A stretch of 64,000 nt of DNA from Nocardia goodfellowii. Its GTDB lineage: Bacteria > Actinomycetota > Actinomycetes > Mycobacteriales > Mycobacteriaceae. Where the stretch lies: the NCBI RefSeq assembly GCF_017875645.1, contig NZ_JAGGMR010000001.1:6200001-6264000 (forward strand), read 5' to 3'. A program made the translations under genes and the position numbers. This document shows, in pieces, positions 22,942 through 35,840 of the stretch (positions within the stretch are counted from its first letter, which is position 1; every line of letters starts with the position of its first letter). The notes under the pieces are model-generated. The model worked only from the letters and a program-made list of their open reading frames with translations, made no database searches and was not told the DNA's origin.

Positions 22942-22969
22942 CGGCCCGCCGAAATTCATCGGCGGGCCG
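22942..22969 (-). terminator. Terminator of the lipid-cluster operon
   Basis: Perfect 11-bp arms (CGGCCCGCCGA and its complement) with loop AATTCA. It starts 22 nt past the stop of the SCP2-like gene and marks the 3' end of the six-gene operon. Confidence 0.7.
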
Positions 22970-22990: not shown

Positions 22991-23404
22991 TCAGGGGAAC
23001 CAGGTATCCAGGCGCATAGCGGTCGGAATACTGCCCGTGATGCGCATCTTCCGGGTCGCCAGCAGGTGCACGCCGCTGGCCTGGCGGGCGATGAGGCGCA
23101 GGAAGGAGACGTCACCCAGGGTGATGGTGACCGCCGGAGCGGCCGGGATGGGGCCGGGTGTGGCGGTGCAGACGCCGTGCCGGATGTGCATGTCCCAGGT
23201 GTCGGGGCGGATTCCGATCTGCCATCGGATCAGCGCGTCCACCTTGCGCGTCTTTCCGGAATCGACTCCGGCGCGCCATATTTCGAAGATCCGCCGCAGG
23301 ATTCGAGGCCGCTCGACCGGGTCGGCCATGATGTCGAGCAGTTCGTCGTCGGACGAACTGGTGACCAGGTGCTGGAACTCGGCTTCGGTGGTGTCACTGT
23401 TCAT
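22991..23404 (-). CDS. SCP2 sterol/lipid-carrier-like protein
   Basis: A 137-residue protein starting MNSDTTEAEFQHLVTSSSDDELLDIMADPVERPRILRRIFEIWRAG. It continues with a beta-rich SCP2-like fold (VDALIRWQIGIRPDTWDMHIRHGVC, TITLGDVSFLRLIARQASGVHLLATRKMRITGS). SCP2 domains bind acyl chains, sterols or acyl-CoA in a hydrophobic tunnel. It is the last gene of the operon and overlaps the SDR stop by 4 bp. A role as carrier or presenter of the lipid intermediate is inferred from neighbours. Confidence 0.75.
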   Translation of the reverse strand: MNSDTTEAEFQHLVTSSSDDELLDIMADPVERPRILRRIFEIWRAGVDSGKTRKVDALIRWQIGIRPDTWDMHIRHGVCTATPGPIPAAPAVTITLGDVSFLRLIARQASGVHLLATRKMRITGSIPTAMRLDTWFP

Positions 23405-24261
23405 TTCGCTTCTCGCAGTCCTTCGAGGGGCCTTCGGCGGACCTGGTCGAGCAGCCGAGCCCCTTCGGGGCCGACGACCCGCTGGTAGGCCGGTCCGAGC
23501 AGGCGCTGGAGCAGGTCCAGGATCCAGGCGTCCCGGCCGACCAGCACCCGGGCCCGTCCGGCGCGGACGCCGGACAGGATGGTGCGGGCCGCCGCGACCG
23601 GCGAAACCCCGGGGTCACGGTCGAACGCGGCCGCCAGGACATCCACGTCGATGCCGGCGGCCGCGTTCGAGTTCCGCACGATGGCGGTCTTGACGCCGCC
23701 CGGGCACACGCAGGTCACGCGTACCGGATGGCCGGCGGCCCGCAATTCCATGCGCAGCGCTTCGGTGAAGCCGCGGACGGCGAATTTCGCCGCGCTGTAA
23801 GCGCTTTGACCCGGGAACGCGACGAGGCCGAACACACTGGAGATGTTGACCAGGTGACCGTCACCGGAGGCGATGAGGTGCGGCAGGAACGCCTTGGTGC
23901 CGTGCACCACACCCCAGAAGTTCACCTGCATGACCCGTTCCAGGTCGGCGTACTCGGTTTCGGTGATCTCGCCGGTGAACGAGACGCCCGCGTTGTTGAC
24001 CACCAGATGCACCGCGCCGAATTGCGTGCGCACCCGATCGGCGTAGGCGGCCATCGCACCCCGATCGCGCACGTCCAGCGGCTCGGCGCGGACCTCGCCG
24101 CCGAGCGCCCGCACCTGCTGCACCGTCTCGGCCAAGCCTGCCTCGTCGATGTCGGTGAGCGCCAGGCGAGCGCCGGACGCGGCCAGCTGCCGCGCCAGCG
24201 CCTGCCCGATGCCCGAACCGGCGCCGGTGACCACCGCGGTCTTGCCGACGAATTCGCTCAC
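23401..24261 (-). CDS. Short-chain dehydrogenase/reductase
   Basis: A 286-residue classical SDR. Cofactor motif TGAGSGIG is at residues 12-19, with NNAG, catalytic Ser in NISSVFG, and YSAAK with the catalytic Tyr and Lys. The Asp after strand 2 (LTDID) suggests an NAD(H) preference. A C-terminal helical tail (ILDLLQRLLGPAYQRVVGPEG) may contact membranes or partners. It overlaps the P450 stop by 4 bp and the SCP2 start by 4 bp. In this operon it could reduce a keto-lipid or oxidise a hydroxyl made by the P450; direction and substrate are inferred only. Confidence 0.9.
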   Translation of the reverse strand: MSEFVGKTAVVTGAGSGIGQALARQLAASGARLALTDIDEAGLAETVQQVRALGGEVRAEPLDVRDRGAMAAYADRVRTQFGAVHLVVNNAGVSFTGEITETEYADLERVMQVNFWGVVHGTKAFLPHLIASGDGHLVNISSVFGLVAFPGQSAYSAAKFAVRGFTEALRMELRAAGHPVRVTCVCPGGVKTAIVRNSNAAAGIDVDVLAAAFDRDPGVSPVAAARTILSGVRAGRARVLVGRDAWILDLLQRLLGPAYQRVVGPEGARLLDQVRRRPLEGLREAK

Positions 24262-25607
24262 CGTCCGTCACCACCGATCTCGACCAGCGGCGGCGCGCTG
24301 ATCCTCGCGCCCTTGGCCGGGGCGAAGGCGACGTGCTTGGAGCTGGCCCGCTCCGGACCGCGCAGATCGGTCGTGATCTGACGGCGGGCCAGCAGCACCC
24401 GCAGCACCTCCGTGGCCTCCATCAACGCGAAGTTGGCTCCGACACAGCGGCGGGCGCCGCCGCCGAACGGAGCCCAGAGGCCGGGTGGAATCGGACCTTC
24501 GAGGAAACGCTCGGGCCGGAATCTCGCCGGCTCCGGGAAGTTCACCGGGTCGTTCTGCACGATCCCGATCATCGGCATGACCGTGCTGCCCTTGGGCAGG
24601 CGATAGCCCGCGAGTTCGACGTCCTCGGTGAGCGTCCAGGTGACCTCGAAGATGACCGGATGCATCCGCAGCGATTCCTTCACCACGGCTTCGAGATACG
24701 CGGTGTCGTCCAGAACCGCGGCCTTGGCCGCCTCGCGGGCCACCTGCCGGTCGCGGGCCAGCTCGTGCAGCGCCCACGCCAGCCCGGTCGCGGTGGTTTC
24801 GTGTCCGGCGATCAGCAGGGTGATCAGCTGATCGCGGATCTCCAGATCGGACAGCGCGTCTTCGCCGTCGCCGGCCACCAGCAGCCGGGACAGCACGTCG
24901 GTGCGCTCGCTGAGGCCGGAGCTGGTGCGGCGCTCGGCGATCACCTCGTAGACCAGCGCGTCGATCTCCCCGACCAGTTTCATAGCGCCGCGCCAGGGGC
25001 CGACCCGTTGCGCGCCAGGCACATTCAGGCCCATCAGCACGATCAGGTCCATGTCCAGCAACCGGCCCAGCAGTGCCCGCATCCGATCGAAGCGCGGTCC
25101 CTCGGCGATGCCGAACGTCACCCGGGACATGATGTCGAGCGTCAATTCCCGCATCCGGTCGTGACTTTCGAACGACGTGGCCACCGGCCAGCGGTCCACC
25201 TCGGCGACCGTGAGGTCGCGCACGATGTCCAGGTATCCGCGAATCGCGTTGCGTCCGAACAGCGGCGCCATCAACTTGCGCAGCCGCTTGTGCTCGTCGC
25301 CGTCCACCATGAACACCGACTTGTGCCCCATCACCGGCGCCATCACCCGATTGCCCTCGCCCGCCGAGAACTGCGACGGCGGCGCCGCGAACATCGCGGC
25401 GATGTGCTGGGGGTCGTAGAGCAGAATCACCTTGCGCCACGGGTAGATATCGATCGATACGACATCCCCGAACTTCGCCCGCAGACTCGCCGCCCAGCGG
25501 TGCCGCCACCAGGTGAACAGCACCGATTGCAGCACGGGGGGCAGCCGGGGCCCCGGCGGTCTGGCCAGCAGGGTGCCGCGCCCGGTTTCTATGCGTCGCA
25601 TCAACAT
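24258..25607 (-). CDS. Cytochrome P450
   Basis: A 449-residue P450. The oxygen-binding helix has AGHETTA, the K-helix ESLRMHP (ExxR) and the haem loop FGGGARRCVG with thiolate C388. The N-terminus (MLMRRIETGRGTLLARPPGP...) is basic and Pro-rich, without an obvious membrane anchor. Start chosen at the ATG after GAAGGA; a longer frame continues into the fusion gene. It starts 11 nt after the fusion stop and overlaps the SDR start. It probably hydroxylates or desaturates a lipid intermediate, with redox partners encoded elsewhere because none is in this operon. Confidence 0.92.
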   Translation of the reverse strand: MLMRRIETGRGTLLARPPGPRLPPVLQSVLFTWWRHRWAASLRAKFGDVVSIDIYPWRKVILLYDPQHIAAMFAAPPSQFSAGEGNRVMAPVMGHKSVFMVDGDEHKRLRKLMAPLFGRNAIRGYLDIVRDLTVAEVDRWPVATSFESHDRMRELTLDIMSRVTFGIAEGPRFDRMRALLGRLLDMDLIVLMGLNVPGAQRVGPWRGAMKLVGEIDALVYEVIAERRTSSGLSERTDVLSRLLVAGDGEDALSDLEIRDQLITLLIAGHETTATGLAWALHELARDRQVAREAAKAAVLDDTAYLEAVVKESLRMHPVIFEVTWTLTEDVELAGYRLPKGSTVMPMIGIVQNDPVNFPEPARFRPERFLEGPIPPGLWAPFGGGARRCVGANFALMEATEVLRVLLARRQITTDLRGPERASSKHVAFAPAKGARISAPPLVEIGGDGR

Positions 25608-25618
25608 CGTGTCGTCCT

Positions 25619-28279
25619 TCACGCGAGAAACAGTCCGTGCTCTTCCATTTCGCCGATGCACTTGGCGAAGGCATCGGCGATGTGGTCGAGATCGGCGGTG
25701 GTGTGCGCGGCGTTGAGGAACATGCCGTGCAGCTCCGGGAAGTAGACGCCGTATTTGCGCATGTAGTACGCGAGCGCCAGGCTGGCCTTGATGTTCGTGC
25801 CGGCGATCTTGTCGCGCACCAGTTTCGGTGTCGCGTAGTCGAAGGCGATGTTGAACATCGAGTGCGCGCCCTTGACCTTGCAGGCGATGCCGCGTTCGTC
25901 GGCGGCGGCCTTCATATCGCCGATCAGGCGGCGGGTGTTGTCGTCCAGGTCGGTGTAGATCTCCGGGTGCTTGCCGAGGTGTTCCAGCACGGCCTTGCCG
26001 GCGGCGGTGGTGATCGAGTTACCGGACATGGTGCCGCCGACGAAGGCGCGTTCGTCCACGTCCCGGAACGGATCACCGGTCGTGCGACCGGTTTCCATGA
26101 ACTCCGGCAGACCCGCGACCGCGCCGCAGGGCAGACCGCCGCCGATGATCTTGCCCAGTGCGGTGAGATCGGGACGCACACCGGCCAGGTGCTGAGCGCC
26201 GCCGAAGTGCACCCGGAACCCGGTGACCACCTCGTCGAAGATCAGCACTATGCCGTGGCGCGTGCAGGTTTCGCGTAGCTGGGTCAAGAACGCGGTGTCG
26301 TAGCTCAGCGTCGCGCCCGGCATCGGTTCCACGATGACGGCCGCCAATTCATGGGCGTGCCGGGCGATCGTGTCGAATGCCGAGGGATGCCCGTATTGCA
26401 GCAGCACCGTCCCCTCGGTCACCGCCTTCTGGCCGCCCGCCGAATTGATGGGCGCGGGCTGGTATTTCGCACCGCTGAACACGAACCACGAGCTGACCGT
26501 GCCCTGATCGGAGAAGCCGTGGTAATGGCCCTCGAACTTGGCGACCCGGTCCCGGCGGGTGTGCGCGCGGGCGATGCGCAGCGCCACCTGCACGGCTTCG
26601 GTGCCCGAATTGCACAGCACCACATTGGACAACGGGTCGAAGGCGTCGGCGATGATCTCCGCCAGCTCCAGTTCGGACCGGTTGCCCATGGCGTTCACGC
26701 CACCCTTGGCCGCGGCCCGCTGAATCGCCTCGACGGCGACCTCGGGGGCGTAGCCGAGGATATGCGGGCCGTAACCGCAGGAGAGGTCGATGTATTCGTT
26801 GCCGTCGATGTCGCGGACCCTGGACCCCTTGGCCTCCTCGATGATCATCGGGTACTGACTCGGCATCACATAGCGGTCCAGGTGGGTCGGCGCGATCAGC
26901 GCACGCTGCGGGTTGTTCTTGGCCGCCATGGATTTCGGGCTCATCTGCCCGATCACCTCGTCGAACTCCGCCTGCAGTTCGGCGTTCATGTACGGCGAGT
27001 ATTTGTCGTTGAAGCGCCGGGCGTTGGCCCAGATGTCGATGTCGGGGTCGACCACGGTGACGAAACCCTCGCCGGTCAGGAAGGCCAGCGACAGGAGGGT
27101 GAACCGGGTGGTCGGGCGGGCACCGTAGCCGGCGACCAAGTTGCTGGCATCATCGAAGAACGACATCGTCGACCAGCGATCGCTCTGTTCCTGGAAGTGG
27201 TGCGCCAGAATGGCTTCCAGCCGGCGGGAGTAGGTGTCCCAATGCTGGTCCAGGGTGCCGCGATCATCGATGAAAGCGTTGGTGAACCGGGTGACGGCCA
27301 GGTCCCATTCCTGCCGGGTGCAAGCGAAGTAGAAGGCGGCCAGCCCCCACTTGTCCTCCTCGTTCAGCTCGCCGACCAAACCGAAGTCCAGCACGACGAT
27401 CTCGCCACCGGGCCGGAACATGATGTTGCCCGGATGCGGGTCGACATGGAACAGGCCGTGGAAATAGGCCATGGTGTCGAACATGTCCTGCAGCCGGCGC
27501 GCCAGCTCCGGGCGATGCTCGGCCTCGACGAGTTCGTGTACCTGTTCGCCGGAGACCGCGTCGATGAACTCCATGACCAGAACCCGGTCGCTGGAGTACT
27601 CCTGGTACACCCGGGGCACCCGCACGAAGGGGTGGGCGAGGAAGTTCTCCGCGATGGCCTGCTGACGTCCGGCCTCGGCGCGCATATCGGTCTGACCGGT
27701 GAGATAGGGCCGCAGCTCGCCGAACAACGCGGGCGCGTCCAGCTTCCGGACCGCGGGCACCAGCCGGTCCGCGGCGCCGAGTAGCACACCGAGCACCGCC
27801 GCGCTGGCCCGCAGCCGCTCCGGAACACCGTGCTTGACCACCTTGAGGGCGACCTTCTCCCCCGTGTGCAACACCGCGCGGTGCACCTGGGCCACCGAGC
27901 CGACAGCGACCGGCTCCCAATCGAATTCGGAGAACAGCTCGCCGACGGGTGCGCGCAGTTCCTGCCGCAGCGTCTCGGTGAGTTCGGCGCGGCTCATCGG
28001 GGCGAGCCCGGAGAAGAAGTCCCGGAACTCGTCGGTGGCGTCCTTGGACAGCAGACCGGTCTGAGTGCCGAGCACCTGGCCCGCCTTCACGTAGAGCGGA
28101 CCCATGCGCAACAAGTAACCGCGCAGCAGCCGGGCGGCCGCTTTCCGGTCGGTATCGCGTTTGGCGGCGCCGCTGAGCAGGTAGCGCGTGCCGTACAGGC
28201 CGGTCCACCACAGCAGACGGCCGGCTTCGACGGCGGCCATGCCCGAGGCGGCCACGGGGGATGTGGATTTCGCGTTCAT
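25619..28279 (-). CDS. ABC1/UbiB-type kinase fused to class III aminotransferase
   Basis: An 886-residue two-domain protein. Residues 1-440 are an ABC1/UbiB/AarF kinase-like domain: KAGQ at 65-68 (family-specific KxGQ), a modified Ala-rich loop VAVGSVAQVHRA, Lys146, catalytic HVDPHPGN at 278-285 and DFG at 298-300. After a short linker (SPKSMAAKNNPQRAL), residues from about 455 are a PLP aminotransferase close to glutamate-1-semialdehyde aminomutase: RDIDGNEYIDLSCGYGPHILG, GTEAVQVALRIARA, FDEVVTGFR, and K710 in ALGKIIGGG as the Schiff-base lysine. ABC1 proteins act on lipid or quinone pathways with atypical ATP chemistry. Both active sites look intact. The start has GGAGGAAAG upstream. It follows KAS-B by 17 nt. 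I know of no characterised protein of this architecture. Confidence 0.88.
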   Translation of the reverse strand: MNAKSTSPVAASGMAAVEAGRLLWWTGLYGTRYLLSGAAKRDTDRKAAARLLRGYLLRMGPLYVKAGQVLGTQTGLLSKDATDEFRDFFSGLAPMSRAELTETLRQELRAPVGELFSEFDWEPVAVGSVAQVHRAVLHTGEKVALKVVKHGVPERLRASAAVLGVLLGAADRLVPAVRKLDAPALFGELRPYLTGQTDMRAEAGRQQAIAENFLAHPFVRVPRVYQEYSSDRVLVMEFIDAVSGEQVHELVEAEHRPELARRLQDMFDTMAYFHGLFHVDPHPGNIMFRPGGEIVVLDFGLVGELNEEDKWGLAAFYFACTRQEWDLAVTRFTNAFIDDRGTLDQHWDTYSRRLEAILAHHFQEQSDRWSTMSFFDDASNLVAGYGARPTTRFTLLSLAFLTGEGFVTVVDPDIDIWANARRFNDKYSPYMNAELQAEFDEVIGQMSPKSMAAKNNPQRALIAPTHLDRYVMPSQYPMIIEEAKGSRVRDIDGNEYIDLSCGYGPHILGYAPEVAVEAIQRAAAKGGVNAMGNRSELELAEIIADAFDPLSNVVLCNSGTEAVQVALRIARAHTRRDRVAKFEGHYHGFSDQGTVSSWFVFSGAKYQPAPINSAGGQKAVTEGTVLLQYGHPSAFDTIARHAHELAAVIVEPMPGATLSYDTAFLTQLRETCTRHGIVLIFDEVVTGFRVHFGGAQHLAGVRPDLTALGKIIGGGLPCGAVAGLPEFMETGRTTGDPFRDVDERAFVGGTMSGNSITTAAGKAVLEHLGKHPEIYTDLDDNTRRLIGDMKAAADERGIACKVKGAHSMFNIAFDYATPKLVRDKIAGTNIKASLALAYYMRKYGVYFPELHGMFLNAAHTTADLDHIADAFAKCIGEMEEHGLFLA

Positions 28280-28296
28280 GTCTTTCCTCCAGAGAT

Positions 28297-29163
28297 TCAG
28301 AGCCCGTAGGGCGCGCAGGCCGCGGCGAAATGGCCGTCGGCGGCGAGAAACAGCGCATGGCGGGCCCGGCCGCGAGGTTCGGCCGCCAGCCACGCGCGGT
28401 AGGCGAAGGGCAGGGCCGCGCTGTGCGGGTCGGCGGCGGTGCCAGGCGTGTGCACCTCGTCGATACCGGCAGCGGCGGCAATCGATTTCGCGAACCCCGG
28501 GCGGGGTTCACCGGCCAGCAGGACGCAGTCGGCGGGATCGAGGCCTTCCTGTTCCAGGCAGCGCAGCACGACCTCGGTCGCGATATCCAGGCCGCGTTCG
28601 CGCGCGGCCTCGTCGGGCTGGTCCAAGGCGATGACCCGGCAGCCCTCGGATCCCATCGTGGCCAGCGGCATATAGGCGAGCGGCCGGGCCGGTGCGGTGG
28701 TGCGTCCCCGGTAGACCGTGCCGAAGCCGGTGTCGTCCGGGCTCGGGGCGACCACGACCGCGGCGGCACTGGTCAGATAGGGAAAGTCCGGATGCTCACC
28801 CCGGGACGGATGGCCCTCGCCCGCCACGATCACCGTCTTGCGCGCACCGGTCACCGCGGCCACCTGCACCGCGTCCAGGAAGCCGCACGGCCCGTTCATG
28901 ATGTCGAAGGACAGGGCGGGCGTGCGCTGCCCGTGGTACCGCAGATTGATGCCGGCCTTCTTCTGGATGAGCGCGGCGATGGCCGGTTCGACGATGTTGT
29001 CGTCGCGGTGGATACCGGTGTTCAGCAGCAGCGCGACCTCGCTGTTGTCGATACCGGACCGGTCCAGGACTTCGCGGACGGCCAGGGCGGAACGTTCCAC
29101 CGAACCCGCGCCCGCCGAGGCGCCGACGGTGACCGAGGAGATAATGGATACACGCATGATCAA
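28297..29163 (-). CDS. KAS III-like thiolase-fold protein B, partly degenerate active site
   Basis: A 288-residue thiolase-superfamily protein starting MIMRVSIISSVTVGASAGAG. Cys93 in DIMNGPCGFLDA is in the nucleophile position. The region that should hold the catalytic His reads VLLAGEPRPGF, and the Asn region reads GTAADPHSAALP, so the usual His and Asn are not evident. It is also shorter than KAS III enzymes (about 330). It overlaps the complete KAS III-like gene A by 4 bp. An A/B heterodimer, as described for NltA/NltB in nocardiolactone synthesis, is plausible: one subunit condenses and the other helps bind or load an acyl group. Confidence 0.8.
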   Translation of the reverse strand: MIMRVSIISSVTVGASAGAGSVERSALAVREVLDRSGIDNSEVALLLNTGIHRDDNIVEPAIAALIQKKAGINLRYHGQRTPALSFDIMNGPCGFLDAVQVAAVTGARKTVIVAGEGHPSRGEHPDFPYLTSAAAVVVAPSPDDTGFGTVYRGRTTAPARPLAYMPLATMGSEGCRVIALDQPDEAARERGLDIATEVVLRCLEQEGLDPADCVLLAGEPRPGFAKSIAAAAGIDEVHTPGTAADPHSAALPFAYRAWLAAEPRGRARHALFLAADGHFAAACAPYGL

Positions 29164-30239
29164 GCCTTCAGTGCGGAGACACGAACGGACATGTGGCCGT
29201 AGACCATTCCGGAGGCGGACGGCACGATGAGGACCTTCGAGCCGGGCGCGATGGTGCCGCGCTTCAGATGGTCGTGCAGGGCGACGAAGTGCGAAGTGGA
29301 CGCGGTGTTGCCATAGCGTTCCAGCACCGTGAGACTTTCCGGCGCCGGACGGCCCGACTCGCGCTCCAGCAGCGCGTTGATGTAATCGAGAGCACGGGCG
29401 CTGAATTGGTGATGGATGATGAAATCGAGTTTCTCGCTGTCGATATCGCCGCCGCGCTCGCGCAGGTAGTCCAGGTACCAGGTGATGCCCTGCAGATACC
29501 GTTCTTCGGTGTGCATCGACTTGTTGTCGGTATACATGGCGATGCCCTCGCTGTTCCGGCTCGGGCCGCCGATGCAGAATTCGGCGTAGGACGCCGAGGT
29601 CATCAGATCGACATAGTCGATGATGTCCGCGTCATCGGTTGCTCGATCCAAGAGCACGCACGCGCCGGAATCACCGACGGACAGCGAAGCGAATTGCGGA
29701 TCGTATTTTTCGGTGATCTCCCGCACCGCGGTTTCGGCGATCGGGGTTATCTGCTCGCCACTGACCACGATGCCGTTGCGGGCGATGCCGGCCCGAATCA
29801 TCCGATCCAGCACCATGATTCCGGTGACCATGCCCGCACAGGCATTGCAGATATCGAAGGCGACCGCCTGCTTCGCACCGATCCTTTCGGCCAGCAGAGC
29901 GGCCAGCGACGGTTCGAAACCGTAGTGTCGCGGGCCGACGGTCCGGGTGATCGACACGGAGATTATGACGTCCACGTCGCCCACTGCGTACTGCGACCGG
30001 GACAGGCAATCCTGAATTGCTTCGGTGGCCAGGGTGAAAGAGTCCTCGTAATTGTCCTCGGAATCGTCGTGGACCCGCCGTTCGCTGACACCGGTGAGTT
30101 CTTCGAGTGGCGGAAGCTTTCCGGCACTCAATCGCTCCGTATCGATGCGCGCGAGCAAGTCGGCCGTGCTGACCGACTTCTGGGGCAGATAGGTCCCGAT
30201 CGATTCGATCCTGCTGTGAATATCACTTTCCGAACGCAT
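29160..30239 (-). CDS. 3-oxoacyl-ACP synthase III-like protein A
   Basis: A 359-residue KAS III family enzyme with a complete triad: Cys134 in DICNACAGM, His277 in IIHHQFSARA and Asn311 in ERYGNTAST. The Gly-rich C-terminal GSKVLIVPSASGMVYG is also typical. Such enzymes join an acyl thioester to malonyl-ACP or to a second acyl thioester (OleA type). Starts MRSESDIHSRIES behind GGAG. It is the first gene of a six-gene operon, whose promoter must lie in the 113 bp between this start and the upstream hairpin. Pairing with a KAS III-like protein lacking His/Asn suggests a heterodimer. Confidence 0.88.
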   Translation of the reverse strand: MRSESDIHSRIESIGTYLPQKSVSTADLLARIDTERLSAGKLPPLEELTGVSERRVHDDSEDNYEDSFTLATEAIQDCLSRSQYAVGDVDVIISVSITRTVGPRHYGFEPSLAALLAERIGAKQAVAFDICNACAGMVTGIMVLDRMIRAGIARNGIVVSGEQITPIAETAVREITEKYDPQFASLSVGDSGACVLLDRATDDADIIDYVDLMTSASYAEFCIGGPSRNSEGIAMYTDNKSMHTEERYLQGITWYLDYLRERGGDIDSEKLDFIIHHQFSARALDYINALLERESGRPAPESLTVLERYGNTASTSHFVALHDHLKRGTIAPGSKVLIVPSASGMVYGHMSVRVSALKA

Positions 30240-30352
30240 CGGATCAGCTCCATTTCGGCTGCTTGGCATGCTTCAGAATTACCCGTCGAGGCCCATCGTC
30301 GCCTCTGCGCTTCATCTTTCGATATCGACGGCGCCCGGGTCAATAAAGCAGT

Positions 30353-30382
30353 CGATCGGCCATTCCAAAGAATGGCCGATCG
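30353..30382 (-). terminator. Terminator after the ParB-domain regulator gene
   Basis: Perfect 13-bp arms (CGATCGGCCATTC and its complement) with loop CAAA, 18 nt beyond the regulator stop. It separates the regulator from the biosynthetic operon, which therefore needs its own promoter. Confidence 0.8.
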
Positions 30383-30400
30383 AATCTGTGGAAATTCTGG

Positions 30401-31270
30401 CTACGAATTGCTAGCGACAGTCAGGGTCTGCTCGTCGAGCCGGTCGCCCACCCGCGCCGCGAACCGGCGCCAGGTCTCCGCGTTCTGCTGCGCGAGTTCG
30501 AGAATGAGATTGAGGCAGTGCTCGGGCAGTTGCTCGGCCAGCTCCGCCGATTCGGCAGGTGTGCGCGGCGCGGCATCGAGCCAGCGCAATAGCTGGCGCC
30601 CGGTCTCGGACAGGCGCAGCGACGGGTCCCGGCGCAGGCTGTCCATCATCGACGGCACCGAACGCATTGCCGTTACCGGGCTTTCGCTGGTCCGCACGGG
30701 GCGCGGCGGCGGCGCGACCGGCTCGCGCAGCCGCCGTACCCGTCCGTCGCGACCGAGCCGGCGCGAAGTCTGGGGAATTTCCCCACCGGCTCGCCGGCGG
30801 ATCGCGCCGACGGTTTTGTGATCCAATCCGGCGACGGCCGCCACCCGCCGATCCGACCACAGCGGATACATCACCATCAGCCGCAGCGCGGCGGCTTTGC
30901 GGTCTTTGAGCGTCAACGGCAGGCCGTGTTCGGAATTGGCCTCGACCGCCAATACGAAGGCCTCCTCGGCGCTACCCTCGAAGAATCTGACCCGAATGGT
31001 CTGCTGCCCTTTCGATTTCGCCGCATGCAGCCGGTGCAGGCCGTCGATCACCTGCATGGTGCTGCGGTGCACCAGAATCGGCGGCAGCGGCGACTCGACC
31101 TGCGCGAGCACCTGGGCGTGCGCGACATCGACCTCCCGCACGCGCAGAAATTCACCGCGGGCAAGCGCCGCGATGGGAATGTCCACTACATTCCGCGAAA
31201 CCCCGACCCGGGCGAGCCGGTCGGCGGCACCGTCGCCGTGCGTCACGCGAGCCGTAGCCTGTCCGTTCAT
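30401..31270 (-). CDS. ParB-domain pathway regulator (StrR/NovG-like)
   Basis: A 289-residue protein. The N-terminal ParB/sulfiredoxin-like domain (VVDIPIAALARGEFLRVREVD, LPPILVHRSTMQVIDGLHRLHAAK) is followed by a helix-turn-helix (RRVAAVAGLDHKTVGAIRRR). A basic/Pro linker and a helical C-terminus follow. The same layout is found in StrR/NovG-type pathway-specific activators of antibiotic clusters, not in chromosome-partition ParB, which has no parA partner here. Start at ATG 31270; a TTG two codons upstream is possible. It probably switches on the six-gene operon next door; no binding repeats were recognised. Confidence 0.8.
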   Translation of the reverse strand: MNGQATARVTHGDGAADRLARVGVSRNVVDIPIAALARGEFLRVREVDVAHAQVLAQVESPLPPILVHRSTMQVIDGLHRLHAAKSKGQQTIRVRFFEGSAEEAFVLAVEANSEHGLPLTLKDRKAAALRLMVMYPLWSDRRVAAVAGLDHKTVGAIRRRAGGEIPQTSRRLGRDGRVRRLREPVAPPPRPVRTSESPVTAMRSVPSMMDSLRRDPSLRLSETGRQLLRWLDAAPRTPAESAELAEQLPEHCLNLILELAQQNAETWRRFAARVGDRLDEQTLTVASNS

Positions 31271-31425
31271 ACGCAACCCCGAAACACTCTAGAACCAATA
31301 GTCCGTCACACACTCGGGTCATCTCTCGCCGAAATCCTTGGACGACACCCCGCTGTGCCGAACCGCTTGTTCGGGACCAGCCGACGCGAAAAGTATTGCA
31401 CGCCGGTAACTTTCAGACAACAATT

Positions 31426-31452
31426 CGGCCGCACCGAATTTCGGTGCGGCCG
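31426..31452 (-). terminator. Terminator of the MmpL transcript
   Basis: Perfect 12-bp arms (CGGCCGCACCGA and its complement) with a 3-nt loop, 36 nt past the MmpL stop. It isolates the exporter from the regulator gene downstream. Confidence 0.72.
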
Positions 31453-31487
31453 GACGGCTTGTCGGACACACTGGTCCGGGAATGGTC

Positions 31488-33734
31488 TCAGACAGTCGTG
31501 CTTTCCCGGACGTTCACCGAGATGGTCTTTCTGTTAAATCTCGGGTACCACCAGTTCCACCGGCCGAATATCTGCATCAGCGCGGGCACCAGCATCAGCC
31601 GCACGATGATCGCATCGATGGCCACGGCCACCGCCAGAGCGAACCCGATCTGCTTGTCCTCGAGCATGTGCGCTGTCACGAAACTGCCGAATACCACAAC
31701 CATGATGGCGGCAGCCGTGGTAATCGGTCGCGCGGTATGCGCCAGGCCGGACGCGACCGCGCGTTTGTTGTCACCGTCGATATCGAATATTTCTTTGATC
31801 CGGCCGATCAGGAAAACCTCGTAGTCCATCGACAGCCCGAACAGCACGGCGAACACCACGGTCGGCAGGAATACCTGGATAAACCCACGGCTTTCGAAAT
31901 CGAAGAGCGATTCTCCGAGCCCCCACTGGAATACCGCGACCGTAATGCCCATCGCGGCGGCGATGGCGATCAGGTTCATCACGATGGCCTCGATCGGCAA
32001 CAGAATGCTGCGGAAAACGATGACCAGGAAGATGAACGAACTCGCCAGCACCAACCCGAATACCCAGGGCGATTTGAGGCCGATCTCCTTGGAGAAGTCC
32101 ACATATTCCGCGGTTTCTCCGCCGACGCGCAGGGTCGGGCCGCCGTTCGCGGTCACCGCCTTCGCTTCCGCGCGCAGAGATTTCACCAGCGCTGTCGCCT
32201 CGGGCGCGTCGAAGGGCACGTTCAGGATCACCGTCGCCACCCGCCGTCCGCTGTCCGAGGCCTCGGGCAGCACCGATGAAATCCGCTTGTCACCGCTGAG
32301 TCCGGCGGCGAAGGCGTCGAAGCGATCGGCCTGCGCCGCGGTCAACGCCCCCTCGACCGGCCCGGTGGCCACGATCTGCACCGGCGCCAGCAGGCCCGAG
32401 GCGAACTTCTGCTCGATCACCTTCGCCGCCCGGCCCGACGGCTGGTCCGACAGGGCCGCGACCCCGGCGTCGAGGCCGAACTTGACCCCGGCCAGCGGCG
32501 CCGCGGAGAGCAGCAACACTGCGATCGCGGCGGTCGCGAACACCCATGGCCGGCGCATCACCAACTCGGCCCAGCGCTCCCATCCGCCGTTGGTCCGCTG
32601 CGCACTCGCGTCGGGCGGAAGGAATTTCGCGGGCAGCGCACCGGAGTTGATGCGTGGGCCGAGACCCGCCAGCACCGCGGGCAGCAGCGTGAGCGAGACC
32701 AGCAGCGCCGCCGTCACCGCGGCGGCCACGCCACCGGCGATGGCGCGGAAGATCGGTACCCGGACCACGAACAGCGCGCCCAGCGAAATCATCACGATCA
32801 ACCCGGAAGCCAAGATATTGCGACCGGTGGTCTCCATCGTCACCGCGACGGCCTGCCTGGTGCGCTGCCGGATATCGCCGATCGCGCTGTGCGCCAGTTC
32901 CTCCCGGAATCGGCTGACCAGGAACATCGAGTAATCGATCCCCACTCCCGTGCCGATCATGGTCGCCACCGCGAGCACCAGCGTGTCGAAATGCATGAAC
33001 GTGGACAACAGGTAGATCAGCCCGTACGCACCCGCGATACCGCCGAGCGCGACGCCCACCGGGACCGACGCCGCCACCAGCGCGCCCATCGACAGGATGA
33101 GCAGCACCAGGGCCACCGGCATGCCGATCAGCTCGGCCTTGGTGGTGTCGTCGACACCGACTCGCACCTGGTCGTTCTGCATCGGCGTGTGCCCCGACAC
33201 ACCCACCCAGATCGCGCCGGAGCCGTGCTGAGCGGCCTTGCGCGCCAGTTCGCCCGCGAGTTCGGAACGTTTGTCCGCCGAGCCCTTGATGCCCGCGATC
33301 GCGATGGCGGTGCGCTTGTCGTCGGACACCAGCTTCGCCGGTAGACCGTCGAACGGCCCGATGACCTCCGAAACCCCTGGTATGCCGCGGATTTCGGTGA
33401 GTACCGCTCGCACCTTGTCCTGAAACTCGGGGCTGTCGACCGAGCGGTCCCGGGAATCGAAGACGATGACGTCCTGCTCGGCCCCGATCGCGGGGAAGTG
33501 CCGGGCCAGAATCTTGCGCGCCTCCGCCGATTCGGCCGCGTCGACGCCGAATTCCGGGGCCTGCAAACGATGTTCGAGGGCGGGCACCGATACCACACAG
33601 GCCGCCAGCAGCACCGCCCACACCGCGAGCGTCAGCCGCCAGTGCGAGGCGATGAACATGCCCCACCGGTGCGCCGCGCCGGGGCGTTCCGGCGGCAGCC
33701 CGACGCGCTCGGGTCTGGTCTCCACTTGCGTCAT
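31488..33734 (-). CDS. MmpL-family lipid/drug exporter (RND superfamily)
   Basis: A 748-residue MMPL protein. It has a first membrane helix (LTLAVWAVLLAACVVSVPAL), a periplasmic loop of about 150 residues and a cluster of five helices (IGMPVALVLLILSMGALVAAS onward, including GTGVGIDYSMFLVSRFREEL). This pattern then repeats in the second half (LFGLSMDYEVFLIGRIKEIFD). The paired Asp-Tyr motifs (IDYS, MDYE) are the proton-relay positions of MmpL transporters. These proteins export lipids, siderophores or drugs across the inner membrane. Start MTQVETRPERVG with GGAGG upstream. The promoter region holds 17-bp boxes shared with the divergent TetR and a downstream gene. It may export the product of the neighbouring lipid cluster, but it has its own regulator and terminator. 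Confidence 0.92.
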   Translation of the reverse strand: MTQVETRPERVGLPPERPGAAHRWGMFIASHWRLTLAVWAVLLAACVVSVPALEHRLQAPEFGVDAAESAEARKILARHFPAIGAEQDVIVFDSRDRSVDSPEFQDKVRAVLTEIRGIPGVSEVIGPFDGLPAKLVSDDKRTAIAIAGIKGSADKRSELAGELARKAAQHGSGAIWVGVSGHTPMQNDQVRVGVDDTTKAELIGMPVALVLLILSMGALVAASVPVGVALGGIAGAYGLIYLLSTFMHFDTLVLAVATMIGTGVGIDYSMFLVSRFREELAHSAIGDIRQRTRQAVAVTMETTGRNILASGLIVMISLGALFVVRVPIFRAIAGGVAAAVTAALLVSLTLLPAVLAGLGPRINSGALPAKFLPPDASAQRTNGGWERWAELVMRRPWVFATAAIAVLLLSAAPLAGVKFGLDAGVAALSDQPSGRAAKVIEQKFASGLLAPVQIVATGPVEGALTAAQADRFDAFAAGLSGDKRISSVLPEASDSGRRVATVILNVPFDAPEATALVKSLRAEAKAVTANGGPTLRVGGETAEYVDFSKEIGLKSPWVFGLVLASSFIFLVIVFRSILLPIEAIVMNLIAIAAAMGITVAVFQWGLGESLFDFESRGFIQVFLPTVVFAVLFGLSMDYEVFLIGRIKEIFDIDGDNKRAVASGLAHTARPITTAAAIMVVVFGSFVTAHMLEDKQIGFALAVAVAIDAIIVRLMLVPALMQIFGRWNWWYPRFNRKTISVNVRESTTV

Positions 33735-33749
33735 GGCCCCGCCTCCAAA

Positions 33750-33815
33750 CTGGAAGTGACTTTCAGATATCCGGAGTCTATGAGCCTTTCCCGCCATCCT
33801 GCAAGTCACTTTCCG
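33750..33815. promoter_or_regulatory. Two TetR-type operator boxes between mmpL and tetR
   Basis: CTGGAAGTGACTTTCAG (33750-33766) and CTGCAAGTCACTTTCCG (33799-33815) both fit the palindrome CTGNNAGTSACTNNCAG; the second has one mismatch. Their starts are 49 bp apart. The same box recurs upstream of the saccharopine-dehydrogenase-like gene, so it is very likely the site of the divergent TetR protein. Confidence 0.75.
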
Positions 33816-33844
33816 TTTTTCACCGCTGGTTGTACGCTCGACGG

Positions 33845-34522
33845 ATGTCTCGTTCAGCGCCGAACGCCTCCACACCGGCCCGCGGCACCTCGGTGTGGGA
33901 GCGCAAGAAACTGCAGGCCATGCGTGAGATCCAGCGCGCCGCACTGGACCTTTTCGACGAGCACGGGTTCCGCTCGGTCACGGTCGAACAGGTAGCCGCC
34001 GCCTCGCACGTCTCCCCCAGCTCCATCTACCGCTACTTCGGCACCAAAGAAGCACTGATCCTCTGGGACGAATACGACCCCAAGCTGATCGAATTGCTCA
34101 GCCAGAACAGCGATTCCGTGGTGACGCCCGCGGAGTTCGTCGAGGAGATCCGCGCCTCGATGCCGGCACTGATCCACGAACTCGCCTCCGACGAAGAGCG
34201 GATCCGCCGCCGGATGCGCTATGTGGCCACCGAAACCGACGTCCGCGACGGGCTGGCCCGGGAGACCCGCCAGCTCGAGGACGTACTGCGCCGAGTGGTC
34301 GGCGCGCGGATCGGCCGCGATCCCGACGATCTCCAGATCCGTCTGCTCTCGGCCATGCTGGCCTGGGGCTTCGACGCGGCACTGGACTACTGGGTGGAAA
34401 CCGACTTCGACCTGCCGCTGGCCGACGCCTTGGGCTACGCCATCGAGGCGCTGACCCGCAGCGCCGAGGCGGTCCTGGGCTTCCCGGTCCCGCGCAGCCA
34501 GGGTCCGCGGCACAAAAACTGA
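33845..34522 (+). CDS. TetR-family regulator of the mmpL locus
   Basis: A 225-residue TetR protein with HTH SVTVEQVAAASHVSPSSIYRYFGTKEALI and a helical effector domain. Start chosen at ATG 33845 (MSRSAPNASTPARG); an in-frame TTG lies 15 nt upstream. It is divergent from the MmpL exporter. The gene after it on the same strand carries the same 17-bp boxes in its promoter. The likely role is repression of exporter, itself and the enzyme gene until a lipid ligand binds. Function is inferred from the shared sites. Confidence 0.88.
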   Translation: MSRSAPNASTPARGTSVWERKKLQAMREIQRAALDLFDEHGFRSVTVEQVAAASHVSPSSIYRYFGTKEALILWDEYDPKLIELLSQNSDSVVTPAEFVEEIRASMPALIHELASDEERIRRRMRYVATETDVRDGLARETRQLEDVLRRVVGARIGRDPDDLQIRLLSAMLAWGFDAALDYWVETDFDLPLADALGYAIEALTRSAEAVLGFPVPRSQGPRHKN

Positions 34523-34583
34523 AAGTTGCTCGCAATTTCTCCGGGGAGACGTATAGTCGAAGCAATCTGATAGTCACTGTCAG
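34519..34583 (+). promoter_or_regulatory. Second pair of TetR-type boxes, upstream of the saccharopine-dehydrogenase-like gene
   Basis: CTGATAGTCACTGTCAG (34567-34583) matches CTGNNAGTSACTNNCAG exactly. A degenerate copy, CTGAAAGTTGCTCGCAA, starts 48 bp upstream at 34519. The pair repeats the 48-49 bp spacing of the boxes in front of mmpL/tetR. Confidence 0.7.
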
Positions 34584-34625
34584 GTTTCACACAGTGAGCG
34601 ACTTCGACTCAGGGGAAGGTTCGCG

Positions 34626-35840
34626 ATGACGAAGATCTTGATGCTGGGCGGCGCGGGACAGATGGGACGAGCCGCCGCACGCGTACTCGCCGCCGCACCG
34701 GCGGTGGACCACCTGGTGGTGACCGACCTGCGAGCGGACCATGCCGAGACAGTCGCGAAAAGCTTGGGCGACAAGGTGTCCGGGCTCGGCCTGGACATCA
34801 CCGACCGGCGGGCGTTGCGGCTGGCGCTCGAGGACTGCGACCTGGTGCTCAATACCGTCGGCCCGTACTACCGATTCGGGGTGCCGATCCTGGCGGCGGC
34901 CATCGAGGCCGGGCGCGACTATGTCGATATCTGCGACGACTGGGAACCGACCCTCGCCATGCTGGAGCTGCACGACCGAGCCCGAGCCGCGGACGTGGTC
35001 GCGCTGGTGGGCATGGGGGCCAGTCCCGGCGTCTCGAATCTGCTCGCGGTGACCGCCGCGCGGGAGCTCGATACCGTCGAGTCCGTGGTGACGGCCTGGA
35101 GCGGCGGCGACGCGCGGGAGGCCGGGGGGATGGGCGGGAACAGCCCGAACGCGGCCTACCTGCACGCGATACACCAGATCACCGGCACCATCAAGGTCAC
35201 CCGGGACGGCGCGCTGACCGATCGGCCGGCACTGGAGGAGATCACCCTGGACTACCCCGGGATCGGAGCCGGGAGCGGGTGGACCTTCGGCCATCCCGAG
35301 GCCGTGACCCTGCACCGGGCGTTTCCCGAACTGCGCGACAACACCAATCTCATCACCGGCGGCCGGGTGCTCATCACGATGTGCCGGGCACTGCGCCTGT
35401 CGGTGGACCGCCGGCTGCTCAGCCCGCATCGTGCCGCCCAGTTGGCGCATCGGGGCATGGCGCTCCTGCCCCCGGGCACCATCGGATCAGGCGCGCTGCC
35501 ACCGCTGTTCGCGCTCGCCACCGGCACCCGCGCGGGCGAGAAAGCCACTGTCGCCACCGCGCTCGCCCAGATCCCCGGGCGCGACATGGCCGTGAACACG
35601 GGTGTGCCGTTCGCCGTCGCGGCCCTGCGACTGGCGACCGCGGACGCCGCGCCCGGCGTGCACACCCCCGAAACCTTGCTCGACCCCGACGCCTACTTCG
35701 CCGCCCTGGCACCGCACTGCATCGGCAGCCCCGCACCGGAGGCCATGACCGCGACCACCCGCTCCTGGTGCAGTGCGGCGGAAAACGCCGCCAGCCTGCA
35801 GACCTCGCTATTGACGGCTTTCTTCGCCGCGAACACCTGA
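34626..35840 (+). CDS. Saccharopine dehydrogenase-like NAD(P)-binding protein
   Basis: A 404-residue protein with an N-terminal Rossmann motif (ILMLGGAGQMGRAAARVL, GxGxxG) followed by VVTDLRAD and VLNTVGPYYRFGVPI. This is the pattern of saccharopine-dehydrogenase-like proteins and trans-acting enoyl reductases of mycolate-containing bacteria. True lysine-pathway activity is unlikely in this setting; a lipid or polyketide reductase role is possible. GGGGAAGG precedes the ATG. Shared operator boxes place it under the TetR gene upstream. Its last 33 bp overlap the convergent TetR gene. Confidence 0.82.
   Translation: MTKILMLGGAGQMGRAAARVLAAAPAVDHLVVTDLRADHAETVAKSLGDKVSGLGLDITDRRALRLALEDCDLVLNTVGPYYRFGVPILAAAIEAGRDYVDICDDWEPTLAMLELHDRARAADVVALVGMGASPGVSNLLAVTAARELDTVESVVTAWSGGDAREAGGMGGNSPNAAYLHAIHQITGTIKVTRDGALTDRPALEEITLDYPGIGAGSGWTFGHPEAVTLHRAFPELRDNTNLITGGRVLITMCRALRLSVDRRLLSPHRAAQLAHRGMALLPPGTIGSGALPPLFALATGTRAGEKATVATALAQIPGRDMAVNTGVPFAVAALRLATADAAPGVHTPETLLDPDAYFAALAPHCIGSPAPEAMTATTRSWCSAAENAASLQTSLLTAFFAANT

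Follow-up and report, generated by a model that had tools for sequence, protein, structure and literature searches.

A Nocardia lipid-type gene cluster combining an OleA/LstAB-type condensing pair with an apparently uncharacterized ABC1 kinase-aminotransferase fusion

The end product of the lipstatin pathway of Streptomyces toxytricini is a beta-lactone to which an amino acid has been added, and the AMT domain of mycosubtilin biosynthesis aminates a beta-keto thioester. For the lipstatin condensing pair, a review reports that the substitutions C128A, H271A, and E60A each abolished LstAB activity (PMC12141560), and a Glu117-Pro motif is described as present in all but two aligned OleA proteins and essential in the Xanthomonas enzyme (PMC7064751). 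Nocardiolactone clusters in Nocardia are treated in PMC7413640, in the main text of which the word “aminotransferase” occurs zero times. In ubiquinone synthesis, COQ8 is proposed to extract coenzyme Q precursors with ATP, and the SCP2 domain of UbiJ binds such precursors (PMC8854274). Here, we examined a 64-kb stretch of a Nocardia chromosome (positions 6,200,001–6,264,000; “the window”), which carries a ten-gene locus at positions 22,991–35,840. Its core is a six-gene operon (A–F), in which a KAS III pair (A/B) is followed by a protein that fuses an ABC1 kinase domain to a class III aminotransferase (C), and four genes encoding ParB-like (R), MMPL (T), TetR, and saccharopine-dehydrogenase-like (SacDH-like) proteins are added to this core (Table 1). 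The locus appears to be a variant of the OleA/LstAB-initiated lipid clusters with an apparently uncharacterized fusion at its center, and its product is likely a new kind of two-tailed amino lipid.

In the alignment, A keeps the triad Cys134-His277-Asn311 together with E109-P110, and the triad spacing (143 and 34 residues) equals that of LstA (C128-H271-N305); the LstA and LstB residue numbers were taken from the review PMC12141560, their sequences lying outside the alignment. The closest NCBIfam match of A, PRK09258, scored 123 bits, below its cut-off of 285. B had no Pfam match, and its KAS III nature is based on a weak match in NCBIfam (30 bits against a cut-off of 285), its identity to the NltB-like protein of the same genome, and a predicted structure with the KAS III fold. 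The columns of B corresponding to the triad Cys, His, and Asn hold Pro, Gly, and Asp, and E57-P58, the numbering of which lies near E60 of LstB, is present in 19 of 19 aligned B relatives. Of the 16 aligned sequences, 15 have the Glu-Pro pair, the sole exception being the FabH of the genome itself, with which A shared 22% identity in the alignment. Elsewhere in this genome, a separate nocardiolactone-type cluster (L119; G000:C1:4118000–4137000) contains an OleA-like pair, an OleC-like protein (505 bits with the OleC model), and an OleD-like protein (203 bits with the OleD model), both scores being under the cut-off. A and B were 54% (351 residues) and 41% (276 residues) identical, respectively, to this OleA-like pair. 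As judged from the sequences, A/B is an LstAB/NltAB-type pair of a catalytic subunit and a triad-less partner and is a paralogue of the nocardiolactone-type pair of the same genome, which points to a condensation of a known kind and supports the original prediction that A/B is an acyl-joining pair. On the other hand, FabH, PqsD, and PqsC are among the solved relatives of A, and FabH and PqsBC were nearly tied with OleA as fold matches of B, as would be expected if the pair behaved as PqsBC does, or as KAS III starter enzymes ordinarily do, transferring one short acyl group to another acceptor to give a small signal or a single-chain lipid. We consider this improbable because A/B is far closer to the OleC/OleD-linked pair of its own genome, keeps the Glu-Pro that its own FabH lacks, and is accompanied by SCP2 and MMPL proteins, which suit a larger lipid. 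Further NltB-like partner genes were observed apart from the fusion-linked ones and from the copies 68–75% identical to that of L119 (Table 1); it therefore seems that further clusters employ this type of KAS III pair as well.

The kinase residues K65, Q68, K146, E202, D280, N285, and D298 and the pyridoxal phosphate (PLP) residues D682 and K710 of the fusion were invariant in all 120 listed homologues, and G67 was kept in 119 of them. We take these, E202 aside, to represent the KxGQ motif, the beta-3 lysine, the catalytic Asp/Asn, and the DFG aspartate of the kinase, and the PLP lysine (K710) and PLP-pairing aspartate (D682) of the aminotransferase. The solved relatives of the aminotransferase half included GSAM (208 bits), the mycosubtilin AMT domain (196 bits), PctV-type enzymes (179 bits), beta-transaminases (147 bits), and D-phenylglycine aminotransferase (142 bits), and the ABC1 half matched a solved “probable ATP-binding protein” (88 bits) and an “ABC1 family protein” (80 bits). 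The predicted model of the fusion had a pLDDT of 82, and all 50 matches listed by Foldseek for the full model were aminotransferases; evidence for the kinase half thus comes from sequence comparison rather than from fold. The identification of C as HemL was rejected, with a score of 283 bits against a cut-off of 527, and the true HemL lies elsewhere in the genome (608 bits).

A database search with the fusion yielded 286 homologues at E ≤ 1e−50 among 7,997 scored candidates. All 120 of these that were listed carry both Pfam domains, and they include proteins from Nocardia, Streptomyces, Mycobacterium, Gordonia, Rhodococcus, Nostoc, Scytonema, and acidobacteria. The closest database homologues (P0001–P0003, 83–93%) were left out of the neighborhood comparison described below, and the search of plasmids gave no match to the fusion at E ≤ 1e−100. 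No description of an ABC1-aminotransferase fusion or of this gene set was found in the open-licence PubMed Central (PMC) literature, most subscription journals being outside that scope. Judging from these sequences, the fusion represents a broad, apparently uncharacterized family that extends beyond this cluster alone.

When genomes were searched with the fusion at E ≤ 1e−150, it was found in 18 of 150 Nocardia genomes (20 loci), in 6 of 397 sampled genomes of the order (its own genome included), and in 1 of 396 sampled genomes of the phylum, namely its own. In a contig scan, 73 of the best 80 of 569 relatives matched the aminotransferase half only and were left out of the neighborhood counts; of the seven full-length relatives, four (L007, L009, L011, and L012) duplicated loci already fetched, and three (from Gordonia, Microcystis, and Uabimicrobium) were new. 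We thus compared 28 loci gene by gene: 20 from the genus, 5 from the order, and 3 non-redundant ones from the contig scan. The search for the gene set and order in other actinobacteria showed that SacDH-TetR-MMPL-ParB-A-B-C-D-E-F recurs in this order in two other genomes, the closest relatives among those compared (L086 and L087), which together with the window constitute class I (3 loci). The ten proteins were 58–78% identical to those of L087, and the change at third codon positions was 1.7–2.6 times that at the first and second positions; the ten genes evolve as expected under selection. The SacDH-like gene of L087 (L087:18486–19723) is split over two frames, possibly as a broken gene or a sequencing error, and only its longer piece entered this comparison.

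The remaining loci showed other gene sets around C, which makes five neighborhood types in all. Class II (4 loci) joins A-B-C to genes for an AMP-binding protein, an SCP2 protein, and a protein of two domains, one of them nitrosuccinate-lyase-like; class IIb (1 locus, L105) has A-B-C-MMPL. Class III (5 loci) has C and an MMPL gene, with a SacDH-like gene also in 3 of the 5 and no KAS III gene found in the fetched flanks. Class IV (12 loci) has a fatty acyl-AMP ligase (FAAL)-like gene and a different KAS III gene near C, to which 4 of the 10 Nocardia members add acyl-CoA-dehydrogenase-like, NAD_binding_9, MFS, and DUF3419 genes; 5 other Nocardia members (L095, L099, L102, L103, and L104) add an MMPL gene within the fetched 20 kb that is related to the window MMPL (632–654 bits). 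Class V (3 loci) has a D-like P450 gene, the second type of KAS III, and then C. Overall, a KAS III gene occurs at 23 of the 28 fusion loci, the A/B pair at 8, a D-like P450 at 6, and the whole set at 3; P450 and short-chain dehydrogenase/reductase (SDR) genes are not common to most neighborhood types. Because only parts of the set accompany the fusion at 17 of the 20 genus loci, the full ten-gene set is a narrow variant. In a midpoint-rooted maximum-likelihood tree of C, classes I, II, IIb, and III were separated from IV and V with a support of 100/100, and classes IV, III, and V each required two label changes. The original prediction of a possible new lipid-type cluster therefore holds in that the set is linked and no matching cluster is described in the literature searched, with the amendment that the locus is larger than proposed and the full set narrowly distributed.

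We propose, with moderate confidence, that A/B makes a 2-alkyl-3-oxo acid and that the fusion aminates it to a 2-alkyl-3-amino acid. By analogy with LstAB and OleA, A/B would join two fatty acyl-CoAs head to head, and the fusion would then aminate the 3-oxo group in place of an OleD/NltD ketoreductase; with no OleC-like enzyme, a beta-lactone would not be closed. In the way proposed for COQ8, the ABC1 domain might use ATP to lift the greasy intermediate from the membrane, and F, the SCP2 protein, might carry it, as UbiJ does for ubiquinone intermediates. A chain would be hydroxylated by P450 D and its oxidation state set by SDR E, and the MMPL protein T would serve as the exporter of the product, although the P450, SDR, and SacDH-like steps have no order readable from sequence. 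The OleC- and OleD-like proteins of the same genome, used as probes at E ≤ 1e−3, detected no relative in the window or in L086 and L087, and C is the next gene in the operon; therefore, amination of the same carbonyl is the simplest reading. A further argument comes from those relatives of the aminotransferase half that aminate at the beta position: beta-transaminases and the AMT domain act on beta-keto acids or thioesters. The earlier proposal that the fusion aminates the joined acyl units thus stands as the most economical reading; which product the condensation gives, which position is aminated, and in which order the steps run are what we infer.

Several observations weigh against this reading. 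GSAM outscores the AMT domain, and D-phenylglycine aminotransferase and other solved relatives act at other positions, so that beta-amination is not fixed by homology. Class III (5 of 28 loci) has the fusion and MMPL with no KAS III detected in the fetched flanks, suggesting that the substrates of the fusion may include other carbonyls, and in classes IV and V (15 of 28) the KAS III is of another type and B is absent. Moreover, SDR E could act on this 3-oxo group as a reductase, and a beta-keto acid can lose its carboxylate before it is aminated. In one alternative, the 3-oxo group left after A/B has joined the chains is reduced to a hydroxyl by the SDR, in the manner of OleD, and the aminotransferase works on another carbonyl that the P450 introduces into a chain; the product would be a hydroxy lipid bearing its amine at a distal position. 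The operon does contain both an SDR and a P450, and a P450 56–57% identical to D is linked to the fusion in 3 of 3 class V loci; nevertheless, E is a classical SDR, an NltD-like probe had no relative in the window, and in the five class II and IIb loci A-B-C occurs with no D or E relatives detected at E ≤ 1e−6 in the fetched 20 kb. The fusion can therefore follow A/B without D and E, and we regard this alternative as unlikely. In another alternative, the beta-keto acid that A/B makes is decarboxylated, as OleA-type products are, and the resulting long-chain ketone is aminated by the fusion to a secondary alkyl amine. Pfam searches of the ten proteins detected no carrier protein, no thioesterase, and no AMP-binding enzyme on which the acid might be retained, in agreement with such a route, but the beta-transaminase and AMT relatives act on their beta-keto substrates and not on plain ketones, and we consider the formation of a secondary amine quite unlikely.

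Regarding the layout of the locus, the six genes predicted to form an operon are all on the minus strand and contain the stated domains (by Pfam, with B assigned by other evidence as above). The boundaries originally proposed were too narrow, as four further genes extending to approximately position 35,840 accompany A–F in both closest relatives. The predicted gaps of 17 (B-C), 11 (C-D), −4 (D-E), and −4 (E-F) nt were correct, but that of −4 nt between A and B requires a TTG start for B; the ATG at 29157, where the aligned B relatives begin, gives +2 nt. Similarly, hairpins fold at both ends of the operon as predicted, but the upstream one directly follows the stop codon of the ParB-like gene R and therefore more likely ends the R transcript. 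R had a weak ParB_N match in 2 of the 3 members (best E 0.0062), the window copy having no match, and a search of solved structures gave no match supporting a ParB identity; R and the TetR protein are probably regulators of the locus. The closest NCBIfam model of T was MmpL3 (248 bits, cut-off 1400). The SCP2 protein F was 54–57% identical to that of two compared class II loci, and the SacDH-like gene is kept in both class I relatives and is 49% identical in three class III loci.

Table 1. Genes and hairpins of the Nocardia locus (window coordinates) and NltB-like partner genes in other genomes
Feature	Coordinates	Strand	Evidence
A: KAS III, LstA/NltA-like catalytic subunit, 359 aa	29160..30239	−	Pfam ACP_syn_III + ACP_syn_III_C
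B: LstB/NltB-like KAS III partner without catalytic triad, 286 aa	28297..29157	−	Glu57-Pro58 kept
C: ABC1 (UbiB/COQ8-type) kinase-class III aminotransferase fusion, 886 aa	25619..28279	−	Pfam ABC1 191 bits, Aminotran_3 167 bits
D: cytochrome P450	24258..25607	−	Pfam p450 197 bits
E: classical SDR	23401..24261	−	Pfam adh_short 197 bits
F: SCP2 lipid carrier	22991..23404	−	Pfam SCP2 33 bits, cut-off 21
R: ParB-like putative regulator, start uncertain	30401..31276	−	66–68% identical in both class I relatives
T: MMPL family transporter, start uncertain	31488..33734	−	Pfam MMPL 262 bits
TetR regulator, divergent from T	33830..34522	+	TetR_N + MftR C-terminal domain; kept in both class I relatives
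SacDH-like oxidoreductase	34626..35840	+	Pfam Sacchrp_dh_NADP 59.5 bits
Hairpin 3' of F, probable terminator	22942..22969	−	11-bp stem, z −2.24, 5/200 shuffles as good
Hairpin between R and A, probable terminator of R	30352..30383	−	14-bp stem, z −4.93, 0/200 shuffles as good
NltB-like partner genes	G075:C1:4143773-4144654, G008:C4:25716-26585, G085:C173:33062-33931, G714:C1:3443366-3444118		39–45% identical to L119 copy

Some of the other fusion neighborhoods carry genes of separate interest. In class II (L091:11389–17958; also L088, L089, and L090), the AMP-binding protein is distantly diazotase-like (AvaA6 model, 74 bits; best match PRK06187, 110 bits; both under cut-off), its identification as OleC-like having been rejected because the similarity was 33% over 51 residues only. 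The same loci (L088–L091) encode a 1122-aa fusion protein that combines a NAD_binding_9 domain with a nitrosuccinate-lyase-like one (620 bits against a cut-off of 650). This gene content suggests nitrite-dependent N-N or diazo chemistry on an amine that the fusion may make. A nitrite pathway in the window genome was rejected, the best nitrosuccinate-lyase match there (355 bits, under the 650 cut-off) probably being an ordinary PcaB-type enzyme. In class IV, the locus L097:1850–14600 (also L096, L098, and L101) contains FAAL, KAS III, ABC1-aminotransferase, acyl-CoA-dehydrogenase-like, NAD_binding_9, MFS, and DUF3419 genes, with an additional MtnA-aldolase-type protein in L097 and, where its contig ends, in L096; the NAD_binding_9 proteins of classes II and IV showed no similarity to each other (best E 0.54). 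The DUF3419 protein is BtaA-like, and these class IV loci may represent a second amino-lipid pathway, perhaps one that uses the aminocarboxypropyl group of S-adenosylmethionine with methylthio salvage. FAAL-like, KAS III, and fusion genes also lie within approximately 12 kb of one another in a Microcystis metagenome-assembled genome (L008:1742–12634) and in Candidatus Uabimicrobium (L010:8869–20798), indicating that this module spans several phyla. The cyanobacterial nocuolin cluster was considered because of the FAAL gene in class IV loci; it has FAALs, an aminotransferase (NocF), and a kinase (NocT) as separate genes, and “ABC1” and “ketoacyl” each occur zero times in the main text of PMC5333925; the comparison was with the description in that main text only, and a link to class IV was set aside rather than rejected.

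If the proposed amination takes place, an anonymous operon gains a concrete reaction, the amination of a 2-alkyl-3-oxo acid that is normally reduced by OleD, and two-chain amino lipids would join the olefins, beta-lactones, and pyrones as products of head-to-head condensation. The fusion would combine a lipid-extracting kinase and an aminotransferase in a broad family of which we found no characterized member in the literature searched, and the ABC1 domain, the role of which is still debated, would gain a partner enzyme within the same chain. As a wider and rather doubtful extension, the products might be amino counterparts of mycolic acids, with an LstAB-type pair instead of Pks13 making 2-alkyl-3-amino instead of 3-hydroxy acids, oxidation by the P450 and SDR, and export to the envelope by the MMPL protein with its closest curated model MmpL3. 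In that case, the fusion would be a general family that aminates head-to-head lipids in Actinobacteria, cyanobacteria, and planctomycetes, one branch of which feeds nitrite-dependent N-N or diazo chemistry.

Finally, we compared the locus with known systems. Of the comparisons initially suggested, that with nocardiolactone and ole was borne out by the paralogy of A/B with the nlt-like pair of the same genome; the window nevertheless has no relative of the OleC- or OleD-like proteins, and no supporting gene for a prodiginine-type cluster was found among the ten proteins, so that identity was rejected. Like UbiB/COQ8 and UbiJ in ubiquinone synthesis, the locus pairs an ABC1 domain with an SCP2 protein in one operon, but here an aminotransferase shares one chain with the ABC1 domain, and no quinone enzyme was detected by Pfam among the ten proteins. 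The aminotransferase half of C is a GSAM-like class III enzyme with the same fold as the mycosubtilin AMT domain (MycA), from which it differs in being joined to a kinase domain rather than to a carrier-protein-dependent assembly line. The lipstatin pair LstA/LstB shares with A/B the adjacency of a catalytic KAS III and a triad-less partner, the triad spacing, and the partner glutamate; in contrast to the lipstatin system, the pair in the Nocardia locus is followed by an ABC1-aminotransferase fusion, an SCP2 protein, and an MMPL transporter.

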